Assembly: GCA_031270285.1 (NCBI GenBank)
Contig: JAISXY010000086.1
Location: 1-37,767, forward strand
DNA length: 37,767 nt
Direction of reading: 5' to 3'
Origin: Campylobacteraceae bacterium
GTDB taxonomy: Bacteria > Campylobacterota > Campylobacteria > Campylobacterales > Campylobacteraceae
Positions within the stretch are counted from its first letter, which is position 1; the number at the start of each line of letters is the position of its first letter. Made by a program: the position numbers and the translations under genes. Below the pieces are notes generated by a model. That model worked only from the letters and a program-made list of their open reading frames with translations. It ran no database searches and was not told the origin of the DNA. Below are positions 16,819 through 37,496 of this stretch, piece by piece.

Positions 16819-16850
16819 GAAAAAACAAAAAGGCGGGATTTCTCCCGCCT
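16819..16850 (-). terminator. Rho-independent terminator of the RCC1 gene
   Basis: An 8-bp perfect stem (AGGCGGGA at 16831-16838 pairing with TCCCGCCT at 16843-16850) with a 4-nt loop. On the minus strand it is followed by TTTTGTTTTTTC. It lies about 60 nt beyond the RCC1 stop. Confidence 0.85.
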
Positions 16851-16910
16851 TTATACTCTCAATCCCTAATCATCAAATTTCCCAAAAAAGTTAATCTTTT
16901 TGAGGTAAAA

Positions 16911-18156
16911 TTAAAACCCTACTTCGGTAAAAATCTCGCGATCTGCCCAATCGCCCAAACCAAGCTGACCACTGGCGTTAAATCCCGTAGCGTAAACTTT
17001 ACCGTCGCTTGTTAAGACAAGTGAATGATAGTTGCCCGCGGCAATAGTTTTGCCCGTTAGCGAAGTTACTTCGGTAAAGCTACTGAGATCGGTCGTATCG
17101 CCCAAACCAAGCTGACCATAGTCGTTTCTTCCCGTAGCGTAAACTTTGTCATCGCTTGTCAACGCAAGCGAATGACCGACGCCAGCGGCAATAACGCTGA
17201 CATCGCTGATAGAGGTTACTTCGGTAAAATTGTTACGATTAGTTCCGATTCCGCTATCGCCCAAACCAAGCTGACCATCGTAGTTATATCCCGTAGCGTA
17301 AACTTTGCCATCGCTTGCAAGCGCAAGCGAATAACCGTCGCCCGCGGCAATAGCGGTAATGTCGCTAAGCGAGATTACTAGCGTAAAGACGTTTATATTG
17401 TTATTATTGCCCAAGCCAAGCTCGCCATATAAGTTCCATCCTGTCGCGTAAACTTTGCCGTCGTTTGACAAAGCAAGCGAATGATAGGCGCCCGTGGCAA
17501 TAGCGGTAATGTTTTTATCGCTAAGGAAAGTTACTTCGGTAAAACTGTTGCGATTAGTCGTATCGCCCAAACCAAGCTGACCATAGTCGTTTCTTCCCGT
17601 AGCGTAAACTTTGCCATCGCTTGACAAAGCAAATGAATGATAAGTGTCTGTGACAATGGAGGTAATATTTTTATCGCTAAGAAAAGTTACTTCGGTAAAA
17701 CTGTTGCGATTGGTATTATCGCCCAAACCAAGCTCGCCAAAGTAGTTATTTCCCGTCGCGTAAACTTTGCCGTCGTCGGTAAGCGCAAGCGAATGTTCGC
17801 TGCCCGCGGCAATAGCGATAATGTTTTTATCGCCAAGGAAGGTTACTTCGGTAAAACTCTGGCGATCGGTATTATCGCCCAAACCAAGCTGACCATTGCC
17901 GTTAAGCCCTGCGGCATAAACTTTACCGTCGTTTGTCAAAGCAAATGTATGCACGCCGCCTGCGGTAATAACGGTAATATCGGCAGATTGCGTCGAACCG
18001 CCGCCGCCTCCGCCGCTTCCGCCTGAACCGCTACCACCGCAGCCGATTAAGGTAAAACTAAGGAAGAAAGCTAATAAGAGAGAGAGAGAGAGAGAGAGAG
18101 AACGCCTTAAACTTAAACGAAGCTAAAGCACCTGAATTAGTTGATGAAACTAACAT
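16911..18156 (-). CDS. RCC1-repeat lipoprotein, phase-variable, out of frame as sequenced
   Basis: The body (GTG at 17954 down to 16911) is made of seven RCC1-type repeats of about 50 residues (GDGKVYATGxNxxGQLGLGDxTxRxxFTEV), enough for one seven-bladed propeller, a protein-interaction fold. The true start is probably the ATG at 18154-18156, preceded by AAAGGAG. From there the frame runs through a CT tract (18077-18101) and, as sequenced, stops after 32 codons at 18058. The frame of the repeats, read upstream, encodes a hydrophobic run, lipobox LIGC (Cys at 18039-18041), a Gly/Ser linker and then the propeller. One extra AG unit, or loss of two, would join them into a signal peptide plus propeller of about 415 aa. 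So the lipoprotein appears phase-variable and OFF here, unless the tract length is a sequencing error. Confidence 0.8.
18077..18101 (-). repeat. AG/CT dinucleotide microsatellite in the RCC1 lipoprotein signal region
   Basis: Uninterrupted alternating AG (CT on the coding strand) of 25 nt, 12.5 units. It lies inside the coding part for the hydrophobic core of the signal peptide. CT repeats read as Leu-Ser in every frame, so unit changes keep the hydrophobic stretch but switch the downstream frame. Confidence 0.95.
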
Positions 18157-18159
18157 GAA

Positions 18160-18168
18160 AACTCCTTT
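18160..18168 (-). promoter_or_regulatory. Ribosome binding site that fixes the RCC1 lipoprotein start
   Basis: On the minus strand AAAGGAG followed by TTTTC and the ATG at 18156. This near-perfect Shine-Dalgarno is the main reason for placing the start upstream of the CT tract. Confidence 0.8.
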
Positions 18169-18299
18169 GATTTGAATTTTATTCATAAAAATAAATTGAT
18201 AGATTATAGCAAAAAATGGTTTTGAAGTTTACTTTGCTTTGAGGGTTTTTGTTTTTAGTGTTAATTTTTTGTGAGTTTGGTGGGTTTTGAGGGTTTGGA

Positions 18300-25982: not shown

Positions 25983-28406
25983 ATGGATAGTAGAAATTGA
26001 GATAAGAGTCTAGACATTATAAGTGGATTAATCAAGACCCTCTCAATCTACAAGAGTAGAAATTAAAAAGAGTCTAGACTTCAGGGGAATAGAGTTGGTT
26101 CGCCAATCAATATCTACAAAAGAGTAGAAATTAAAAAGAGTCTAGACTCGTAGCGGCTTAATCCTCCTCTTCAAAATCTACAAAAGAGTAGAAATTAAAA
26201 AGAGTCTAGACGATCTAGGTGATTGCCAAACCTTTCTATTATCTACAAAAGAGTAGAAATTAAAAAGAGTCTAGACTAGAGGAGAGCGGCGATGAATGAG
26301 AAAATCTACAAAAGAGTAGAAATTAAAAAGAGTCTAGACAATAAAGCGTACTATAAGCACGCACCGCCATCTACAAAAGAGTAGAAATTAAAAAGAGTCT
26401 AGACTAAAATTTGTAATTACTTCAGGCTGCAGATGTATCTACAAAAGAGTAGAAATTAAAAAGAGTCTAGACCAGTCATGTATTCATTAGGTATATACTT
26501 ATCTACAAAAGAGTAGAAATTAAAAAGAGTCTAGACAAAGGGCATTAAAGGAGTTATTTTTACTCTTATCTACAAAAGTAGAAATTGGAATAAGAGTCTA
26601 GACCCTCTTTTTTAAGGTAATTTAAGAGCTTATCTACAAAAGTAGAAATTGGAATAAGAGTCTAGACAAAATAATTTTTGTTTCGGAGGTCAATTATCTA
26701 CAAAAGTAGAAATTGGAATAAGAGTCTAGACCACGCCACACGATAATCAAGAAGATTGTTATCTACAAAAGTAGAAATTGGAATAAGAGTCTAGACCTGC
26801 GACATCTACCGCGGCTGAATACTTATCTACAAAAGTAGAAATTGGAATAAGAGTCTAGACTGATACAAAAGATGCCGACGTAGGACAAATCTACAAAAGT
26901 AGAAATTGGAATAAGAGTCTAGACATAATGAGGGATTGGAGACTGTACTCAAATCTACAAAAGTAGAAATTGGAATAAGAGTCTAGACCATGAAAGAATA
27001 TATTAATGCTGAAAAATCTACAAAAGTAGAAATTGGAATAAGAGTCTAGACCGGAGATAAAGAAACAACGCAGGAGATAATCTACAAAAGTAGAAATTGG
27101 AATAAGAGTCTAGACCGCGGCAACGGCTATCTATATGCTCTTAATCTACAAAAGTAGAAATTGGAATAAGAGTCTAGACTTATTTTGTAAAACGACATTT
27201 TATTTGATCTACAAAAGTAGAAATTGGAATAAGAGTCTAGACTTTAGGAATAAACTTACAAATATACCTGATCTACAAAAGTAGAAATTGGAATAAGAGT
27301 CTAGACATGTAGAATACCAAAAGGCATGGAAAACACATCTACAAAAGTAGAAATTGGAATAAGAGTCTAGACTTGCGTTACTTCCTATTGCGGACGGCAT
27401 ATATCTACAAAAGTAGAAATTGGAATAAGAGTCTAGACAAAGCCGTTATGGAAATGAAACCGTTTATCTACAAAAGTAGAAATTGGAATAAGAGTCTAGA
27501 CTTACCCGCATACTTTGTGTGTTGTTCTAATCTACAAAAGTAGAAATTGGAATAAGAGTCTAGACATGACAATATTTTCATTTATACAAATAGCATCTAC
27601 AAAAGTAGAAATTGGAATAAGAGTCTAGACCTTTTTCTTTCCGTTTTCTCCCTCCCCATCTACAAAAGTAGAAATTGGAATAAGAGTCTAGACCTCTATA
27701 TTGCGGCGTTCCCGCCAACTCTAATCTACAAAAGTAGAAATTGGAATAAGAGTCTAGACATCAGAATTAAACTTTAAGGAGATAAAATCTACAAAAGTAG
27801 AAATTGGAATAAGAGTCTAGACACAATGTAAAAGAAGACCAAAGGCATCTTATCTACAAAAGTAGAAATTGGAATAAGAGTCTAGACTTCTGCTGGATCA
27901 TAATTTATACCCTTATATCTACAAAAGTAGAAATTGGAATAAGAGTCTAGACATGGAAAAGTGATGAGGTTGTTTTAGAGACATCTACAAAAGTAGAAAT
28001 TGGAATAAGAGTCTAGACAATTAGCAAAGCAGACAAGAGATATAAATCTACAAAAGTAGAAATTGGAATAAGAGTCTAGACTTTCCCGCCACGCCGTTAC
28101 TCCAAGCTCATCTACAAAAGTAGAAATTGGAATAAGAGTCTAGACCCCCAGGGTCAGTTATCTGTTTTGATTTTGATCTACAAAAGTAGAAATTGGAATA
28201 AGAGTCTAGACTCCTGAATTTGTTAAAAAACTTGAGGATAATCTACAAAAGTAGAAATTGGAATAAGAGTCTAGACTGCAACGTATATCTCGTCGCATAG
28301 CTCAAGATCTACAAAAGTAGAAATTGGAATAAGAGTCTAGACTCTATCTCAAAGATAGCCAATCTTTCACATCTACAAAAGTAGAAATTGGAATAAGAGT
28401 CTAGAC
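25980..28406 (-). CRISPR. Type V-A CRISPR array, about 38 repeats of two classes
   Basis: Repeats of 36 nt alternate with spacers of 27-32 nt. Read on the minus strand each repeat ends in a Cas12a handle (AATTTCTAC, loop, GTAGAT), so crRNAs are made from the minus strand and the leader is at the high-coordinate end. Counting from the leader there are 29 repeats (28406 down to 26568) with loop TTTT and ATTCC before AATTTC. Then follow 8 repeats (26536 down to 26046) with loop TCTTTT and TTT before AATTTC; the last of these is 34 nt. The final repeat, at 25980-26015, is degenerate: it keeps the 5' half but has lost GTAGAT, so it marks the old end. This gives 37 spacers. No spacer target was recognised by eye. 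Confidence 0.98.
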
Positions 28407-28586
28407 TCTACTTGGTAATTATAGCATTCAAAATGCCTATTTTTCAATATGTTTTTAGTTTTTTTTAAAAACATATTTATTCCCCCTATATATTAAGAGT
28501 TTGACATTGGTATGCTAAAGAACCGATTTTATCATCATATAATACAGTTTGTTAAAAAAATATAAAAAAATTAAGACTCACCTTTG
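28407..28586 (-). promoter_or_regulatory. CRISPR leader with array promoter
   Basis: AT-rich 180-bp gap between the cas2 stop and the first repeat. A perfect TATAAT (minus strand, 28423 to 28418) with an upstream TGC extension lies 11 bp before the first repeat, so transcription should begin just ahead of it. A GCATT/AATGC inverted repeat (28424-28436) abuts the -10 box. A 10-bp perfect inverted repeat ATATGTTTTT/AAAAACATAT spans 28447-28476. These are candidate binding or structural elements for transcription or for leader-end spacer integration. Confidence 0.75.
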
Positions 28587-28871: not shown

Positions 28872-29849
28872 CTATTCAACTAAAAATTGAGGATATTTTA
28901 ACAAGTCATTTTGTTGCATAAAACAGCGATAAAACTTGCGCATATAATTAAATATTTCTATTTTTTGCTCGATCAATACATCATAGAACATTTTAGTATA
29001 ATCACTATTTTTTTCACGTTTTAAAATATATTCATTTTTAAAAAGATTAAAATCTTCTATTTTGCACTGTTTGGTATTGAAAGCTTTGCGAACCTGCTTG
29101 TCTATAATGCATCGAAAAGGCTCTACCAAGTCACATATTAGCGATTTACGCTTAAACCAAAGTTGATGATAAACGCCTTTATACGGGTCAAATCCAAATA
29201 AACGGACAAATACTTCAATAAAGTTAAATAAAATAGTATAGCCGATGTCAAGAGTTGCATTTATCGGGTCTATCTTTGTTCTGGGTGAGCGGTTTTTCCA
29301 ATTAAACGGTTCAAAATAAATAGAGAAAAACAGTGTCGCAGCTTTTCCTTCCAGCCCCATGACGGTATCATAATTTGGTGCGCTTGGAATTAAAGACAAT
29401 ATAGCGCTGCATTGCTCTTTTGTCTTTTTCATATCGCTTGTTTTTAAGCGCGTTTTTTCTAACAAAATCAGTTGATTTTTTATCTTGTTTATTACCAGTA
29501 TTTTAGGGATTTGTAAATTTTCTTTATTGTATTCATACTGTTTTTTGCGCAATAAAAAATTAGCTTCAGCCGTAATAGAAAAGAAAAAAACAGGTCTTAA
29601 GTTTTGCTTCATGACGACAAGCGATATTCCGTATCTGGTGCATTTATCAATTAATGGAGTCGTAACAGTTACAGGTCCTATGATAAACAGCGCTAGTATT
29701 TTCTGAAATGGCAGTTTTGTCAGTGTCTTTTTTTCTTCAATATTTTCAAGCAACAATTCACCGTTTGCAACTCGTAATGATTTGTCTTTGATGCAGTTTA
29801 TGACAAAGATAGAACGGTATTTTATATCTTTATGTGTAAACATTTTCAA
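28872..29849 (-). CDS. cas1: CRISPR-associated integrase Cas1
   Basis: Metal-dependent integrase that inserts spacers at the leader end. The N-terminal beta domain is followed by the all-helical catalytic domain. Catalytic residues are visible as the Glu in VMGLEGKAATLFF, the His in KGVYHQLWFKRKSL, and Asp/Glu in CDLVEPFRCIID. The length of 325 aa is normal for type V-A Cas1. Its start lies inside the end of cas4 (20-nt overlap), so adaptation genes are translationally linked. Together with cas4 and cas2 it forms a full adaptation module. Confidence 0.97.
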   Translation of the reverse strand: MKMFTHKDIKYRSIFVINCIKDKSLRVANGELLLENIEEKKTLTKLPFQKILALFIIGPVTVTTPLIDKCTRYGISLVVMKQNLRPVFFFSITAEANFLLRKKQYEYNKENLQIPKILVINKIKNQLILLEKTRLKTSDMKKTKEQCSAILSLIPSAPNYDTVMGLEGKAATLFFSIYFEPFNWKNRSPRTKIDPINATLDIGYTILFNFIEVFVRLFGFDPYKGVYHQLWFKRKSLICDLVEPFRCIIDKQVRKAFNTKQCKIEDFNLFKNEYILKREKNSDYTKMFYDVLIEQKIEIFNYMRKFYRCFMQQNDLLKYPQFLVE

Positions 29850-30396
29850 TATCCACTTTGTCGCATAAAGCGCAATAGATACAGTGAGTGCATTTATTTG
29901 TATTTATATCTACGGGCTGTTCGGGATTGAATTGTTTAAATCTTAAAATAAAATCCTGCAACTCTTTTTTATCTGCTTTATTTGGAATTGTTACGGGGAA
30001 AGTTTTATTGGTCGCAATGGCATAAAAAGCTAACTTTCCAACCTCATATCCCATCTCAATCATACAAAAATACTCTGCCCAAAGTTGATAGATTTGACCT
30101 TGATAAATTGCGTTTAGCTGATATTTGCGCTCTATGAGCAGTTTTTCGTTACATTTATAAATGTCAATTTTCCCCACAATGCCAAGCTCATTTGAATATA
30201 CCGACATTCCCATTATTTCATCTTTTCTGGTACTGTATTTTTTCTCATCAATGCTTTCATGAGCAACCCTGCCGCGTGTTTGAGGAACGGCATGTACGAG
30301 CTCCTCATCTCCACCCATATATACATTGTGCAGATATATAGAATACGGACAAAAAATGAAATCATTCAGAGTTGAGATGGTTATCAGGTTGTGCAT
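29830..30396 (-). CDS. cas4: CRISPR-associated exonuclease Cas4
   Basis: RecB-family iron-sulfur nuclease that trims prespacers and selects those with a PAM. An N-terminal Cys is in FIFCPYSIYLHN. The nuclease core shows GRVAHESID, GIVGKIDIYKC with the metal Asp, and LLIERKYQ with Glu and Lys, then QLWAEYFCM (QhxxY-like). The C-terminal cluster is KCTHCIYCALC. At 188 aa it is of usual size. Its ATG begins immediately after the stop of the second effector. Its presence implies that new spacers are chosen for the 5' T-rich PAM used by Cas12a. Confidence 0.95.
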   Translation of the reverse strand: MHNLITISTLNDFIFCPYSIYLHNVYMGGDEELVHAVPQTRGRVAHESIDEKKYSTRKDEIMGMSVYSNELGIVGKIDIYKCNEKLLIERKYQLNAIYQGQIYQLWAEYFCMIEMGYEVGKLAFYAIATNKTFPVTIPNKADKKELQDFILRFKQFNPEQPVDINTNKCTHCIYCALCDKVDIENVYT

Positions 30397-33300
30397 TCAG
30401 TTTCTTTCATTCATAAAATTTTGAAATCCTCTTTTAGCAATATTAAATGCGGCAATTCCATCATTCGAGTGCATAATGCTAATGCTACTGAAAGTACAAT
30501 TTTGATTTTCGCATATAAAAATTTTTTTCTTTTTGTTTTCTAAAATTTTGTTTTTATCTTTATTCTTTTCTCCACAAATAGGACATTCTTGACTTGTACC
30601 AGCTTGGCTGACAAATCCAATATTTCCCAATCTCATAATTTTGTTTTTGTCATTATCGTCAATACCTTCACCTCTAACAGAAAGTAAGTTTTTAATTGGC
30701 GGCACTAATCCATAATTTTGAAACTTTTGATACAATCCCCATTCAAGCATTCTATAAATATTTCCCTGAAAAAGCTTCAAGTCATTTTCTGTTTTTTGCG
30801 TATCAAACCCTTCTTTTATAATTAGTCCATCACCACCCAGTATTGATTTATAGTGTTTATAAAGAAAGTCGATAACGCCTATTGCATTGGAAACAATAGC
30901 TTTTCTTAAATGATTAATTTTAAGAGACAATTTTTCATTTGTAATCTCTCTCTTGACATTATATCGTTCCAATCTTTCTTTTATCTGCTCCTGCTCTATT
31001 AGATACTTAAAATATATTCTATTTCTCAATACTTCTTTGATTTCACTCAAGTGATCAGCTATGAAAACAAGGGCAAAAAAATTAAATCCTTCTTTTTCAT
31101 TATTATATTTTTTATCTTCTTTTCTGTTTTTATTTATTTCATCTATTTCGTCTTCTGTAAGTTCTAATCCACTTTTGATTATAATTTTTTGAGCGGTTTC
31201 TTCTTTAATATGATCATTTAACTCATAAATAATTTTTTGAGCATCCATAAGTTTTAAAGATAGAAAGCTGCTTATATCACCATTGGTTACAATATTACCG
31301 TTAATAATTTTTGCCATTGTTAAATCAATAGTCAGCAAAGAGCCTTCTTTAAAATATTTGTTTTTCACTTCGTCATATTCTAATGTTGTAGTTTTAAATG
31401 TTTTTACAAAAAATTCTTTATTGAGAAAATAGGAAGGATTTTTAATAATTTTATACTCCTTATCATTCCTATATTTTGAAAATCCTAATCCTCCTTCTGT
31501 AATAGTTAATACAGGAAATTTATGTTTTGTGGTTTCCAAGTTAGATATTTTATCTTGGTTTGAGATACTTTCATGTGTTTTAAATTCAGGTATATATACG
31601 CACAGAGAAGATAATTCTACGATTCCATTGTCGATACCAATAATAAATTTAATATCATCCTTTTTTATATTTTCATTGAAACTATCAATTTGTTTTTTAA
31701 ATTCATCCTGCTCTATAAATGAGATATTTTTTGTTGGCAAATTACTATTTTCAGAAATTGTAGTAATTAATGTATATTGCGGATCACGATATCTATTCTT
31801 CTTTTTTGCATCATACAACTCACTTTCTTTACCATATTTTTTTACTCTGCTTTCTTTTGCATCACGCCAAGAGATTGTAATCTCTGGATTTAATCGCACA
31901 TTAAAGCCATTTTGCTCATTTTCATTTTCCCAAAATGATTTCCATAATTTCGTATGAGTTTTTAAGTTAATTTTTTCTTTATTTTTCAAATCTAAACTTG
32001 CTATTTCAAAAATTTGTGCATCGTATGTTGATTGCATTTTTTGTATAATATCATTTTCATAAATTACTTTTCTGCGGTAACATATTTTTTCAAGGGCAAT
32101 CGCAAAATCTTCTAAACTATTAAAATCATGATTTAGTACTTCATTTTGCAATTGTTCAAAAGGTAGATTTAAAACTTTTTTAGCATAATTACTATCTAAA
32201 ACATCTTTATAGAATTTGATTTTTTTCTCCTCCGTTTTTAATTCATATTCACCTTGAAGGAATTTGTTGTTGCTAAAATACTGATATTTTGTTCCTTTAA
32301 ATTCCTCTTCTATTTTAAGATAAAATTCATTTGTCTTAATCTTGTTTTCTACATATCCAAAACAAAGTTTACGCAAACTACGCAATGTAAGTGATTCAAA
32401 CCAATATGCTTTTTTATTACCTTCGTCATTTTGTTTGTTGATAATAAAGTCTCTACATTCTTTAGCTTTATTGTTTTCTTTTGGAATAAGTATGAGCAGA
32501 TGTTTATTTTCCTCTTCGGCAATGACAGCCCAATATTTTAACTGTTGGGATTCTACGCTCTCTTTTTCTATTCCTTTTATAAGAGTTAAGATTATGCCAT
32601 GCTTATGAGCGACATTTCCATAAAAATTACAAAATGATTTATATCCAATAAACTGCTGTTTTGTACTTTTATCGGCACCATTGATCGCCTTTCCTCTTTT
32701 TTGTTTTAACTCTTCCATTTCACTTTTTAATTGCCTTTTATACTCCTCGCTATTAGACAAATCTCTCTTGGTTGCTTTTTCTGTTATTTCTTGAGTTATA
32801 TTTTTATATGTTTCAAACTCATTTTTTGAAATATTTTCAAAGAGATACAACTTATGATTATTTTTCAAATTATCATAACTGAAATTTTCCTTCTGCATCA
32901 ATTCATTAAAAGTTTTTTTCTGTACTGACTTAATATTTTTTAAAATTTGCCTCAAAGATACAGTATTATCATTACTAAAATTGGGTGTATCTCCTAATAA
33001 TAATGTTTTGTCCTGCACAATATATTTAATATCGTCTATTACACATTCAATTATTTTTTGATTATTTGTTGTTATATTAAAATAAGAAGTTAATTTTTGA
33101 ATGTTGATTATTAAATTTCCCTTTTGTTTCTTTATTTCTTTTCCAAAATCAACAGCATTTTTAAAAATCGTGTAATAGTTAAAACTTGCTTTTACTAAAG
33201 GAAAGCCATTTGATTGAGATGGAAGATACCTTTTTAATCCTGTTTCCAGCATGGATTCAATTTTTTCTTTAATATTTTTAAGTTGCAAACTCAATACCTC

Positions 33301-33840
33301 AATTTCGCTTTTATCGTTGCTATTATCAACAAAAGACGAAATAAATGGAAAATTATTTCTTGCAAACATTTTTTTAATTAGCAATCCAATAGCAGAATGT
33401 TTTGATAAATTGTGTTCATTTTCATTCGCTTTTTCAGTTAGCAATTGAACTAATTCTTCAAATCTTTCAAACCATTTTTTTATTAACTCGTTCATCTCTT
33501 TAATTGTTCCAATGCTAAATTCTCTAATTTTGTTATCTATTTGCATACTCTTATAGTAAGTATCTTGAGCATATAACCTTATCCATGATTTTTTTATATA
33601 GATAGTTTTCTTTAGTTTATTCGTGATTTTGTCATTTTTATCCTTGCAATACAAATATTCCTTTAATCGTGGAATGAACTTATGGCATTCTGTTACAAAA
33701 ATATAAAGATCAAAATCTTGTTCCTTTTTTAGATTTTCTACTTGTTTTTCTAATTTTTTAATGGACTCTTCTTTATCATAATCCAACTTGAACCGAATAG
33801 TTTTTGTTATCTTATACTTTTCCAACCTTTTTCTCCTCAT
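30397..33840 (-). CDS. cas12a2: Second Cas12 effector, Cas12a2 (Cms1)-like nuclease
   Basis: Large crRNA-guided nuclease of 1147 aa, next to cas12a. The N-terminus YKITKTIRFKL matches the Cas12a start, and a wedge-like segment (KTHTKLWKSFW ... FNVRLNPEITISWRDAKES) aligns with HTLYWKSLFS ... LNGQAEIFFREKS in the neighbouring Cas12a. RuvC residues are D737 (IIGIDNG), E1010 (LIIKEGFD) and D1127 (HSNDGIAAFNIAKRG). Before RuvC-III is a zinc ribbon C1086-x2-C1089-x20-C1110-x4-C1115, with no Cas12a Nuc domain. This matches Cas12a2, which is activated by RNA targets and then cuts RNA and DNA indiscriminately, causing abortive infection. The ATG overlaps the cas12a stop (ATGA). A TTG at codon 6 preceded by AGGAG is an alternative start. 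RNA triggering here is inferred from the family. Confidence 0.87.
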   Translation of the reverse strand: MRRKRLEKYKITKTIRFKLDYDKEESIKKLEKQVENLKKEQDFDLYIFVTECHKFIPRLKEYLYCKDKNDKITNKLKKTIYIKKSWIRLYAQDTYYKSMQIDNKIREFSIGTIKEMNELIKKWFERFEELVQLLTEKANENEHNLSKHSAIGLLIKKMFARNNFPFISSFVDNSNDKSEIEVLSLQLKNIKEKIESMLETGLKRYLPSQSNGFPLVKASFNYYTIFKNAVDFGKEIKKQKGNLIINIQKLTSYFNITTNNQKIIECVIDDIKYIVQDKTLLLGDTPNFSNDNTVSLRQILKNIKSVQKKTFNELMQKENFSYDNLKNNHKLYLFENISKNEFETYKNITQEITEKATKRDLSNSEEYKRQLKSEMEELKQKRGKAINGADKSTKQQFIGYKSFCNFYGNVAHKHGIILTLIKGIEKESVESQQLKYWAVIAEEENKHLLILIPKENNKAKECRDFIINKQNDEGNKKAYWFESLTLRSLRKLCFGYVENKIKTNEFYLKIEEEFKGTKYQYFSNNKFLQGEYELKTEEKKIKFYKDVLDSNYAKKVLNLPFEQLQNEVLNHDFNSLEDFAIALEKICYRRKVIYENDIIQKMQSTYDAQIFEIASLDLKNKEKINLKTHTKLWKSFWENENEQNGFNVRLNPEITISWRDAKESRVKKYGKESELYDAKKKNRYRDPQYTLITTISENSNLPTKNISFIEQDEFKKQIDSFNENIKKDDIKFIIGIDNGIVELSSLCVYIPEFKTHESISNQDKISNLETTKHKFPVLTITEGGLGFSKYRNDKEYKIIKNPSYFLNKEFFVKTFKTTTLEYDEVKNKYFKEGSLLTIDLTMAKIINGNIVTNGDISSFLSLKLMDAQKIIYELNDHIKEETAQKIIIKSGLELTEDEIDEINKNRKEDKKYNNEKEGFNFFALVFIADHLSEIKEVLRNRIYFKYLIEQEQIKERLERYNVKREITNEKLSLKINHLRKAIVSNAIGVIDFLYKHYKSILGGDGLIIKEGFDTQKTENDLKLFQGNIYRMLEWGLYQKFQNYGLVPPIKNLLSVRGEGIDDNDKNKIMRLGNIGFVSQAGTSQECPICGEKNKDKNKILENKKKKIFICENQNCTFSSISIMHSNDGIAAFNIAKRGFQNFMNERN

Positions 33841-36800
33841 TTTTTTATTGCTGTTTTATTTTGAGCATATTGTAGCCATTCTTTATTAGTAACAGCTAAA
33901 TTAACTCTTCTTAAATCATCTGCCTGCTTAATCTGTTCTACTACCAAAAGTCCTTTGCGGGCAATATTGTATGCTCCGTTGGCATCGGCATTATTTGGCA
34001 AACCTGCTTTTTGCTTGCGGCTGTCAAAAAATTCACCGTTAGCATCGGCAACTGGAGAGATAAGGTAATCAATATCTGAATTTTTAATGCTATTGCGTAT
34101 TTGAACCGTGAGTTTAAACAAATATAAAAGCTCTTCAAAAAACTTTTTTTCTGTCCGCTGTAAAATCTTATCTTTTAAATTGTTTTTGTAGTCAATTTTT
34201 CCGTCAAACAGTTTAATAAATTCGTCGCTTAAAATTATCTCCTCATTGTCCCATTTATTATTTTTTTGAGGATTTATAAATGTTTTTATGCGGGAGCTAT
34301 TTGTGCAGATTGTCCAATCAAGGCGCGTCTCTTCCGCCTTTGAGTTAAATTTACGATAATCGTCCACAACAAATTCAAAATAGTTTTTTGTGCCGTTATG
34401 GCGTATATCCGCAAATTTTTCAAAAAACTTTTTTGCACTTTCGACATTTATATAATCAGTATCAAACAAATTTACAAAACCTGTTACAGGGTCAATTTTA
34501 CTCGTATTCCATGCAGGAATATAAAATAAAAATCCGTTTTGCTTTCCAATTGCTTGGAAGCTTTCAAACTTATTGGTTAATTGATAAGCATTCAACAAAC
34601 CGCCTTCCTCTGTCGGAACTTTTTTCTTATCAACCAAATAATTTAATTTATCTATAAGCATTTTTTCAAACTTCTGATAAACTTGTTTTTCAACTTTTTG
34701 TCTGCCGCGCATAAATCCGAAATTTAAATCTTCCAAAACAACAACAGCATCATACTTTATCATCAGCTTAGTGATTTCATATATTGCCTGACTCAGATAA
34801 CCCTCTTTCAGCTCTTTAATATTTTCAATAATTTGCCAGCTTTTTCTTGATTCATCTCTATCATCCTCTTTTTTTTGTAGCAAATCATGATAATTGGTTT
34901 TGCCAATCTCATTTAATGAAGACTGCTCTATAATATTGCCATCCAAATCAATTACGCTCAAATATAACAAGTGTCGTTCGCCGCGGTCAATACCAATAAT
35001 ATGTTTGATATTGCCGTTTTTTATATATTGATTAACTTTTTCATTGATATCTTCATTGCCGATCGCTTTAAAATTCAAAGTAATGGGCACATGAAATTGG
35101 AATTTATCCAAAGCATATCTTTTTTTGGAAATAATCGGGTATTTAAATTTATCTTTTAATTCATCATAATGATGACCTTTTTCCCAAACCTCATCGCTAT
35201 AATTTAATGATTTTTCTCTAAAAAATATCTCTGCCTGCCCGTTTAATTTATACACTACATTTTTTAAATTCTCCTCGCTAAATAAGCTCTTCCAATAAAG
35301 AGTGTGTATATTTGGAGTCCCTTTGCTGTAAGGAGAGAAATCCTTGCTGTAGATTTGGAAGAGATAAATTTTGCCCTCATCAACTAATTGGTTTATGTAA
35401 TTTTCAGAAATATTTTGAAATGTGATTTTATATCCTTGATGCTCTACTTCACGGTAAAATCCACTCAAATCGTTATAACTTGAAGTGTCCGAAAAATGAA
35501 AATCAAATTTTTTCCAATCCTCATGTTTTTCTATGGATGATTTAAAAAAATCTATCAAGGTTCTACAATCGTCAATATCAAAATTATCACCTTTTTTATG
35601 TGTCGCGTTTTTATAATTTTCAATCAACTGCTCGCTTGGTTTAAATTCATCAATTCTGCTTTGCGAAAAAAATACTTTTGGCAGCATCTTATTGGCTCCG
35701 GGCAAAAGTTTATAATCCATCTTTTTATATCCATCGCCGTTTGGAGCATTTTCAAAAACTTTATTATGTTTTTTATCCATGATGGCAAGATAGTATAATC
35801 CGTCTTTGCATAACAAAATACCAGTATTATCTCGTTCTTTGTTTGCATCCCAACCGGCAAGCAGCGTTGAATTTTCAAAGTTTAATTTTATCTTCTTTGT
35901 TAAGTAAGGTTTTTGCGTTACATAATTTCGCACTTTATTGTATAGTGGCGTTATTTTGTCAAGTTCACTCCATAACGCTTCAAATTCAGAATAAAAACGC
36001 ATATCTTTATCGCTCTCGCTGCCTTTACCTAAAAGCGGCTTTACAAACCGCTGCAATTTTTTTAAACTATCCAAAAACTGTTTTATCAAAATGATATTTT
36101 CTTTATCCTGTATAAGGGATTTTTCTTTGGGATAATCCGCATCCAACAGCGTTTGAATTTTTAAATAGTTATCGCCTATCGCATCAAACAGATCCTTGCC
36201 ATTTTCATTTTTATCCAATAATTTAAAATAGTCATGAATCGTCCTGTTTTCCAAGCATTCATTAATAAACGCTATAGAAAAAGAGTCAGCAGATTTTAGT
36301 TTTTTATTGATGCGATCATCATATTTTTCCTGTTTTTCTCTTTGCTTTTTCGGTTTATCATTTATGAGTCTTTTTTTGACAACATCCAATATAATAGAAT
36401 AGTTTCCTAAAAATCTCTGCGAAATGTCAGTCAACCCACCATCGTTGCGTAGATAAATTTTTGACAAATCAAACTCATCTATGTGTAAAAGCAAATCTTT
36501 TAAGGAGTATTCATTTTCAGCGCTTTTATTTAATACATTTGCGGCTATTTCGCGATATGTATTTTTTATACTCTCCAAAACTTCACTGTCATTTGAAAAT
36601 TTTTCGGGCAGCCATGAGATTGTTTTATCTCTATCACTTAATATTTGCTTAAAAAGTTCGGTAAATTTTGGCAGATGGGCAGTTTTGGTGCTTTGGTGTT
36701 GATTGTAAAGATTGATATACTCATTTAAGCCTTGGATTTTTGTGCCGTCACTCAATGTTTTGCCGCCAATAGCAACAGCATTGTAAATTTCTATCTGTCT

Positions 36801-37496
36801 TTGCGTTACAACTTCGCTATAACTCTCAATCTTGAAAAAATCATCAATCTCTTTTAGATGCAAATCCTCTTTAAGATTTTCATAAACTGTTTTTATCTCA
36901 TGTGCTAAAATATCTTTGATTTTTTCAAACACAGCTATATTGCTTATAAATTTCGGCAGATTTTCATGTATCAGCCTATAAGATATAGCGGTTGATTTTT
37001 CCTCTTCGGAGTACATATTTTTTCTATTTTCATTAAATCCAACAAAATAAGTAGTAAAATTTTTAAACTCTTCTACTGTTTTTTTGTCATTTTCATTATC
37101 AACAAATTTAAGCAAATCTTCCTTTATCAACTCTTTACCGAATAATCTGCTTGTATCAAAAGCTTTTGCTATCTGCTTTCGAAGCAATCCTTGTATTTTC
37201 TCAAAAGCTTTTTTCTCTACATCATTTTTGTCTTTAATATAAAAATAGAAACAATACTCTTTCAGATAATCTTCATGAAACCTGAAATTTTGCAGAGATT
37301 TTTCTATAAAATCTTTATGGTATTTGTCAATATTTTTTTTAACCTCCTCATATGCATCGGCTCTGTACTTATCTTGAGCTAGTAGTTTGTTTTGTAAAAT
37401 ATTTTCCAATGTTTTACCTACTGGCTTCAATTCAAACCGAAGCGTCTTTGACAGGGAGTATAGATTTGTAAAATCTTTGAGAGTTTTGCTGTACAT
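33837..37496 (-). CDS. cas12a: CRISPR-associated endonuclease Cas12a (Cpf1)
   Basis: Crispr effector of 1219 aa that processes its own crRNA and cuts dsDNA next to a 5' T-rich PAM. It opens with LYSLSKTLRFELKPVGKTLEN. The PAM-interacting block is YKLLPGANKMLPKVFF (Lys603 is the likely PAM-contacting residue). The wedge contains YKLNGQAEIFFREKSLN and YALDKFQFHVPITLNF, which carries the pre-crRNA processing site. RuvC residues are D837 (IIGIDRGERHLLYLS), E922 (VVVLEDLNFGF) and D1171 (NNADANGAYNIARKG). The Nuc arginine is R1069 (CTNSSRIKTF). All catalytic residues are present, so it should be active. AAAGGA 6 nt upstream fixes the ATG at 37496. It is first in the operon and appears to be under control of a solitary upstream guide. 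Confidence 0.98.
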   Translation of the reverse strand: MYSKTLKDFTNLYSLSKTLRFELKPVGKTLENILQNKLLAQDKYRADAYEEVKKNIDKYHKDFIEKSLQNFRFHEDYLKEYCFYFYIKDKNDVEKKAFEKIQGLLRKQIAKAFDTSRLFGKELIKEDLLKFVDNENDKKTVEEFKNFTTYFVGFNENRKNMYSEEEKSTAISYRLIHENLPKFISNIAVFEKIKDILAHEIKTVYENLKEDLHLKEIDDFFKIESYSEVVTQRQIEIYNAVAIGGKTLSDGTKIQGLNEYINLYNQHQSTKTAHLPKFTELFKQILSDRDKTISWLPEKFSNDSEVLESIKNTYREIAANVLNKSAENEYSLKDLLLHIDEFDLSKIYLRNDGGLTDISQRFLGNYSIILDVVKKRLINDKPKKQREKQEKYDDRINKKLKSADSFSIAFINECLENRTIHDYFKLLDKNENGKDLFDAIGDNYLKIQTLLDADYPKEKSLIQDKENIILIKQFLDSLKKLQRFVKPLLGKGSESDKDMRFYSEFEALWSELDKITPLYNKVRNYVTQKPYLTKKIKLNFENSTLLAGWDANKERDNTGILLCKDGLYYLAIMDKKHNKVFENAPNGDGYKKMDYKLLPGANKMLPKVFFSQSRIDEFKPSEQLIENYKNATHKKGDNFDIDDCRTLIDFFKSSIEKHEDWKKFDFHFSDTSSYNDLSGFYREVEHQGYKITFQNISENYINQLVDEGKIYLFQIYSKDFSPYSKGTPNIHTLYWKSLFSEENLKNVVYKLNGQAEIFFREKSLNYSDEVWEKGHHYDELKDKFKYPIISKKRYALDKFQFHVPITLNFKAIGNEDINEKVNQYIKNGNIKHIIGIDRGERHLLYLSVIDLDGNIIEQSSLNEIGKTNYHDLLQKKEDDRDESRKSWQIIENIKELKEGYLSQAIYEITKLMIKYDAVVVLEDLNFGFMRGRQKVEKQVYQKFEKMLIDKLNYLVDKKKVPTEEGGLLNAYQLTNKFESFQAIGKQNGFLFYIPAWNTSKIDPVTGFVNLFDTDYINVESAKKFFEKFADIRHNGTKNYFEFVVDDYRKFNSKAEETRLDWTICTNSSRIKTFINPQKNNKWDNEEIILSDEFIKLFDGKIDYKNNLKDKILQRTEKKFFEELLYLFKLTVQIRNSIKNSDIDYLISPVADANGEFFDSRKQKAGLPNNADANGAYNIARKGLLVVEQIKQADDLRRVNLAVTNKEWLQYAQNKTAIKK

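Follow-up and report, generated by a model that had tools for sequence, protein, structure and literature searches.

In Helicobacter pylori, expression of sabA is switched by CT repeats (PMC2715451) and that of oipA by CT repeats placed in the signal peptide (PMC10564699). The gene described here lies on a stretch of 37,767 nucleotides (hereafter the window), which is contig 32 of a 106-contig, 1.5-Mb draft genome (91% complete) of the Campylobacteraceae. It resembles both H. pylori genes in that a CT tract occupies the 5′ coding region, that one of the three frames is ON, and that the organisms belong to the same bacterial order (PMC10564699, PMC2715451). The H. pylori proteins are Hop outer-membrane proteins, and the signal peptide of OipA is Ala-cleaved, whereas the window family consists of lipobox lipoproteins with a different leader, one leader serving unrelated protein families; in place of the β-barrel body and Ala-cleaved signal peptide of the Hop family, the window gene has a lipobox Cys and an RCC1 body. 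Contingency genes of Campylobacter share with it slipped-strand translational phase variation within the Campylobacteraceae, and two poly-G loci are present in the window genome as well. Those genes, however, are mostly of the poly-G/C type (91% of the repeats in Campylobacter, with dinucleotide tracts numbering only 44 in all the genomes studied with PhasomeIt; PMC6321876), while the window family carries CT tracts in a shared leader. The variable lipoproteins of Mycoplasma (Vlp, Vpma), as far as they are outlined in the review that cites them (PMC11868660), likewise form, within a single genome, groups of surface lipoproteins with combinatorial variation; by the same outline the M. agalactiae system acts by site-specific DNA inversion, whereas the switch proposed here is translational. 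The mechanism is known from sabA and oipA; new are a leader common to lipoproteins that are otherwise unrelated, an RCC1 protein as the target of switching, and the insect-gut genus in which they occur.

The elements of the locus, all on the minus strand, are the following:

18203 to 18208, minus strand: −10-like box TATAAT, from the sequence and the family alignment (TATAAT or TACAAT is kept there in most leader copies)
18174 to 18198, minus strand: short inverted-repeat region between the −10 box and the ribosome binding site, from compensating arm changes across the family
18162 to 18168, minus strand: ribosome binding site AAAGGAG, from the sequence
18058 to 18156, minus strand: OFF-state reading frame of 32 aa, ATG to TAG, checked base by base
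18103 to 18141, minus strand: conserved leader N-region coding TNSGALASFKFKA, from the family alignment and census
18077 to 18101, minus strand: CT tract of 12.5 units in the hydrophobic core of the signal peptide, the proposed switch, from a repeat check
18039 to 18050, minus strand: lipobox LIGC, with proposed lipidation and cleavage at the Cys, found in nearly all family copies too
16911 to 18074, minus strand: lipoprotein body including the stop codon, a Gly/Ser linker followed by a seven-bladed RCC1 propeller, open and without a start of its own, from Pfam RCC1, AlphaFold2 and a Foldseek match to UVR8
16820 to 16851, minus strand: intrinsic-terminator-like hairpin GGCGGGA...TCCCGCC followed by a T-run, from the sequence

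A base-by-base check bore out the arrangement that the original prediction had described, a ribosome binding site and an ATG leading into 12.5 AG/CT units within a signal peptide. The start codon occupies positions 18156-18154 of the minus strand with AAAGGAG upstream, and the tract is pure (25 nt, 100% match over 12.5 units). As had been claimed, the frame opened by this ATG ends after 32 codons, its product being MLVSSTNSGALASFKFKAFSLSLSLSLISFLP and its stop lying at 18060-18058. The lipobox and the seven RCC1 repeats, predicted to lie in a startless frame behind a TAG, do so: the nearest upstream stop of the RCC1 frame is the TAG at 18125-18123, no ATG, GTG or TTG occurs in that frame between it and the end of the tract, and the last coding base of the body is 16914, with the stop codon at 16913-16911. 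When the tract was changed in silico by −4 to +4 units, a long protein resulted at −2, +1 and +4 (413, 415 and 417 aa) and all other lengths gave a product of 25-34 aa, in agreement with the claim that a gain of one unit or a loss of two restores a lipoprotein of about 415 aa. A change in tract length thus shifts an otherwise intact gene between frames. The ON-frame signal peptide, FKFKAF(SL)nLLAFFLSFTLIGC, has the attributes of a signal peptidase II substrate: a positively charged N-region, a hydrophobic core and a lipobox with its Cys. Since (CT)n is read as alternating Leu-Ser in every frame, the hydrophobic core would be usable at any in-frame tract length. PhasomeIt takes dinucleotide repeats from six units upwards (PMC6321876), and the 12.5 CT units lie well above that cut-off. 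A tract of such length appeared in none of 100 dinucleotide-preserving shuffles of the window, and tracts of (CT)8 or longer are present in the 1.5-Mb genome only at the window locus and at two other loci with the same leader.

Pfam recognizes in the body seven RCC1_2 stretches and six full RCC1 repeats (E-values of 3e-72 for the RCC1 repeats and 2e-95 for the RCC1-like domain). A seventh, partial repeat came from the genome search; six full repeats and the split end pieces make up seven blades. AlphaFold2, run on five aligned RCC1 bodies from the family, gave a propeller of moderate confidence (pLDDT 67, pTM 0.77) that Foldseek matches to UVR8 and other RCC1 domains with TM scores of 0.81-0.82, phmmer being concordant. 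Repeats above the Pfam cut-off and the seven blades of this moderate-confidence model place the protein among the RCC1 and RCC1-like propellers. The fold is thus common to UVR8 (TM 0.81-0.82), the HERC RLDs and RCC1, but the window protein is predicted to be a secreted bacterial lipoprotein with a Gly/Ser linker, and nothing in it points to photoreception or nucleotide exchange. For two OFF copies that belong to different genomes, comparison of the RCC1 bodies gave dN 0.37 and dS 1.13. By NG86, dN/dS is about 0.26-0.33 between genomes and about 0.37-0.58 among the paralogues of the window genome; the latter values are moderate, so the paralogues are not strongly constrained, and the values may be blurred by gene conversion. 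Two further RCC1 genes were noticed in the window genome: one at C15:11689-12639 (L043) encodes a 443-aa lipoprotein with another leader and no CT tract, and the other (C45:1-351, L044) is cut at the contig start. In the papers searched, neither RCC1, phase variation and lipoprotein nor GLUG, phase variation and signal peptide were found together.

The promoter, the 5′ UTR and the signal-peptide leader, usually with a CT tract, recur at 67 scored loci in 13 of the 14 genomes of one Campylobacteraceae genus. The leader model was built from sequence only, from 16 rows in four of which the tract had been shortened by hand for easier alignment; with it 13 of the 14 genomes gave matches at E≤0.01, up to 15 per genome. 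Within the window genome the same leader precedes a 230-aa lipoprotein unrelated to RCC1 (C46:14715, 20-nt CT tract, ON), a second RCC1 body (C46:23232, OFF), a GLUG-like repeat protein (C106:14118, OFF), an RCC1 body with an interrupted tract (C71:1046, ON) and an RCC1 remnant (C96:12140). Among 53 bodies 25 are of the GLUG type, five are RCC1 and one is TPR, many having no match at all; Gly11 and Cys12 of the lipobox are near-invariant across them and little else is common. The original prediction had tied the switch to the RCC1 gene. That gene is indeed switchable, but the switch is not private to it, as the leader is common to unrelated lipoproteins and RCC1 accounts for five of the 53 bodies. 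In a search of 153 genomes of the family, leader matches outside the genus were weak and single and came from four genomes of another genus; with E-values of 8e-5 to 5e-6 they were taken as chance. Further matches to the leader pattern outside the genus (L051-L057) were discarded as not leader-gene-like. Two other arrangements were observed. In G008, a leader with a 27-nt tract (L082, C67) reads in frame into a body of about 377 aa, and no lipobox was found in that body; it begins with other sequence before a TPR-like protein, and the leader may therefore have come to lie ahead of a different gene. In G005, a tandem cluster (C24:74000-79000, L169) comprises four weak leader matches before small Asn/Ser-rich lipoproteins, with no long CT tracts.

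At least 80% of the leader is common to 63 pairs of loci, and in 34 of these pairs the bodies have no detectable similarity. Near-identical leaders before unrelated proteins suggest modular spread of the switch itself. Leader likeness is higher within genomes (0.417) than between them (0.342), a difference reached by none of 2000 label shuffles. The inverted repeat of the 5′ UTR is a further part of the leader: in 32 copies, chosen by eye for a recognisable −10 box, 85.5% of cells are paired, against 31-42% when the arms are slid, and 15 cells are changed on both sides, a number reached by none of 500 shuffles. The pairing involves a G-T pair in the window copy. RNAalifold predicts no consensus structure for the repeat; instead of an RNA hairpin it may therefore be a palindrome at the DNA level. 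In G005 the ends of contigs C30, C10 and C13 have an identical leader, followed by a different body in each, and the upstream flank of this leader was found on one of the three only; in G008 two leaders, on C14 and C5, lead into one body start. These patterns fit recombination between leaders and bodies; duplicated stretches that break short-read assembly possibly explain them too. We put forward only tentatively that this insect-gut genus possesses a mobile leader cassette, phase-variable and composed of promoter, 5′ inverted repeat and CT-tract signal peptide, that recombines onto unrelated lipoprotein bodies and so would combine ON/OFF switching with body swapping in surface variation, in hosts without antibodies.

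Across the family, tract length was counted with one preceding T where present, and ON or OFF was called from a start codon picked by rule. With tracts of at least 13 nt, nine of 34 copies are ON and 25 OFF, the frames being distributed 9/10/15 (p=0.47 against one third); with tracts below 13 nt, 28 of 33 are ON and five OFF (long versus short, Fisher p=1.7e-6). These tests treat partly inherited states as independent, because the loci are related, and the nine ON and 25 OFF long-tract loci, which show homologous loci in both frames, are paralogues and relatives rather than alleles of one locus. The 25 OFF long-tract bodies, five of which end at a contig end, add up to 8,422 open codons, while the same DNA read in its two remaining frames has 1,308 stops. 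Among the five OFF copies with a short tract, the body is short in four (55-142 aa), which is what real decay would be expected to produce. A lost frame thus tends toward decay when the tract is short and does not when it is long, which is the main argument for reversible switching.

MutS_I, the N-terminal domain that marks MutS1, was detected in none of the 14 genomes of the genus and in 11 of 14 control genomes; a lack of mismatch repair would be expected to favour dinucleotide slippage. Two poly-G tracts of the window genome, both out of frame as assembled, were also noted. One, of 18 nt (C106:21232-21249; L207:1433-1450), sits in the 5′ end of the gene for an N6_N4_Mtase DNA methylase, possibly itself phase-variable, and the other, of 12 nt (C6:9920-9931, L208), near the signal-peptide end of an OmpA-family outer-membrane protein; the two loci count in favour of phase variation. 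Elsewhere in the window a type V-A CRISPR-Cas system (28872-37496) comprises Cas12a (33837-37496), Cas4 and Cas1, with an array of Cas12a-type repeats at about 25989-28410. A second large protein of 1147 aa (30397-33840), between Cas12a and Cas4, has a weak Cas12f1-like TNB match only.

The window gene very probably encodes a surface lipoprotein whose phase variation results from slipped-strand mispairing in the signal-peptide CT tract, and it was captured in the OFF state. The out-of-frame body could also reflect a gene that is always ON and whose tract length the short-read draft assembly got wrong. The consensus tract length could be wrong, given the 106 contigs of the draft and the MEGAHIT-style contig names of related MAGs; stutter is possible in long dinucleotide tracts, the assembler had trouble with shared leaders, as G005 and G008 show by leader copies lying at contig ends, and random error in long tracts would likewise leave about one third of them ON, a point against switching. 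However, the window copy is internal to a contig of 37.8 kb, with a 25-nt tract far below typical short-read length, and the two poly-G loci are out of frame too. Besides, dozens of genes carry a long pure CT tract at this same place, and such tracts would be hypermutable in any case, all the more so in the absence of MutS1. We therefore regard a miscount as improbable. Permanent frameshift in a gene whose body is being lost is less probable still. The full product is impossible as assembled, and short-tract OFF copies with short bodies do exist in the family, but the body runs for 387 codons free of stops while its two remaining frames contain 39, the RCC1 copies have dN/dS below 1, the break falls exactly in a reversible tract, and recent death would have to be assumed for each of the 25 long-tract OFF copies, many of which have unrelated bodies. 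Finally, a repetitive tract within a coding region could permit ribosomal or RNA-polymerase slippage, yielding a constant low level of full-length protein at any tract length with no switch at all. Against this, the sabA tracts of H. pylori have the same lengths in cDNA as in genomic DNA (PMC2715451), and the overwhelmingly in-frame short-tract relatives (28 of 33) imply that the frame matters; we give this explanation hardly any credence.

Slipped-strand ON/OFF switching is well supported by the leader family, the near-random frames of long tracts, the mostly ON short tracts, the open OFF bodies and the undetectable MutS1, which make a phase-variable lipoprotein in its OFF state, as originally proposed, the best reading; that it takes place in living populations we infer. 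In the model, translation would begin at the ATG at 18156 and the length of the tract would decide the downstream frame. In one frame of three the ribosome would reach the lipobox and the RCC1 propeller (about 413 or 415 aa), and in the other two translation would end after about 30 codons. The tract would act as one element of a leader module (comprising the promoter, the 5′ inverted repeat, the ribosome binding site and the signal peptide) placed before many unrelated lipoproteins, so that any one cell would show a random selection of these proteins. The lipobox is the ground for assuming surface exposure, and a function in adhesion or in the avoidance of phage or protists is conjecture.

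Exact leader matches among GTDB contigs all belong to MAGs named Campylobacteraceae bacterium (Gx485, Gx481, Ncb351, Gsp477, Im510, Iy174). MAGs bearing the sample codes Gsp477, Gx485 and Ncb351 were obtained from the termites Glyptotermes and Neotermes cubanus (PMC11707648); the termite origin refers to these named relatives. Arora et al. (PMC9137090) was considered as their source and set aside, as SPAdes was used there and the sample codes are found instead in PMC11707648. The switched protein had been called an antigen, a label that the analysis does not support; antibody escape cannot drive switching in the termite guts where the named relatives live; in an insect, other drivers such as phage or gut protists are indicated. 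Multi-locus phase variation has been described mostly in pathogens, perhaps in part through database bias, and wider surveys are called for (PMC11868660). In a genus with named members from termite guts, a shared leader, often with a CT tract, stands before several lipoproteins per genome.
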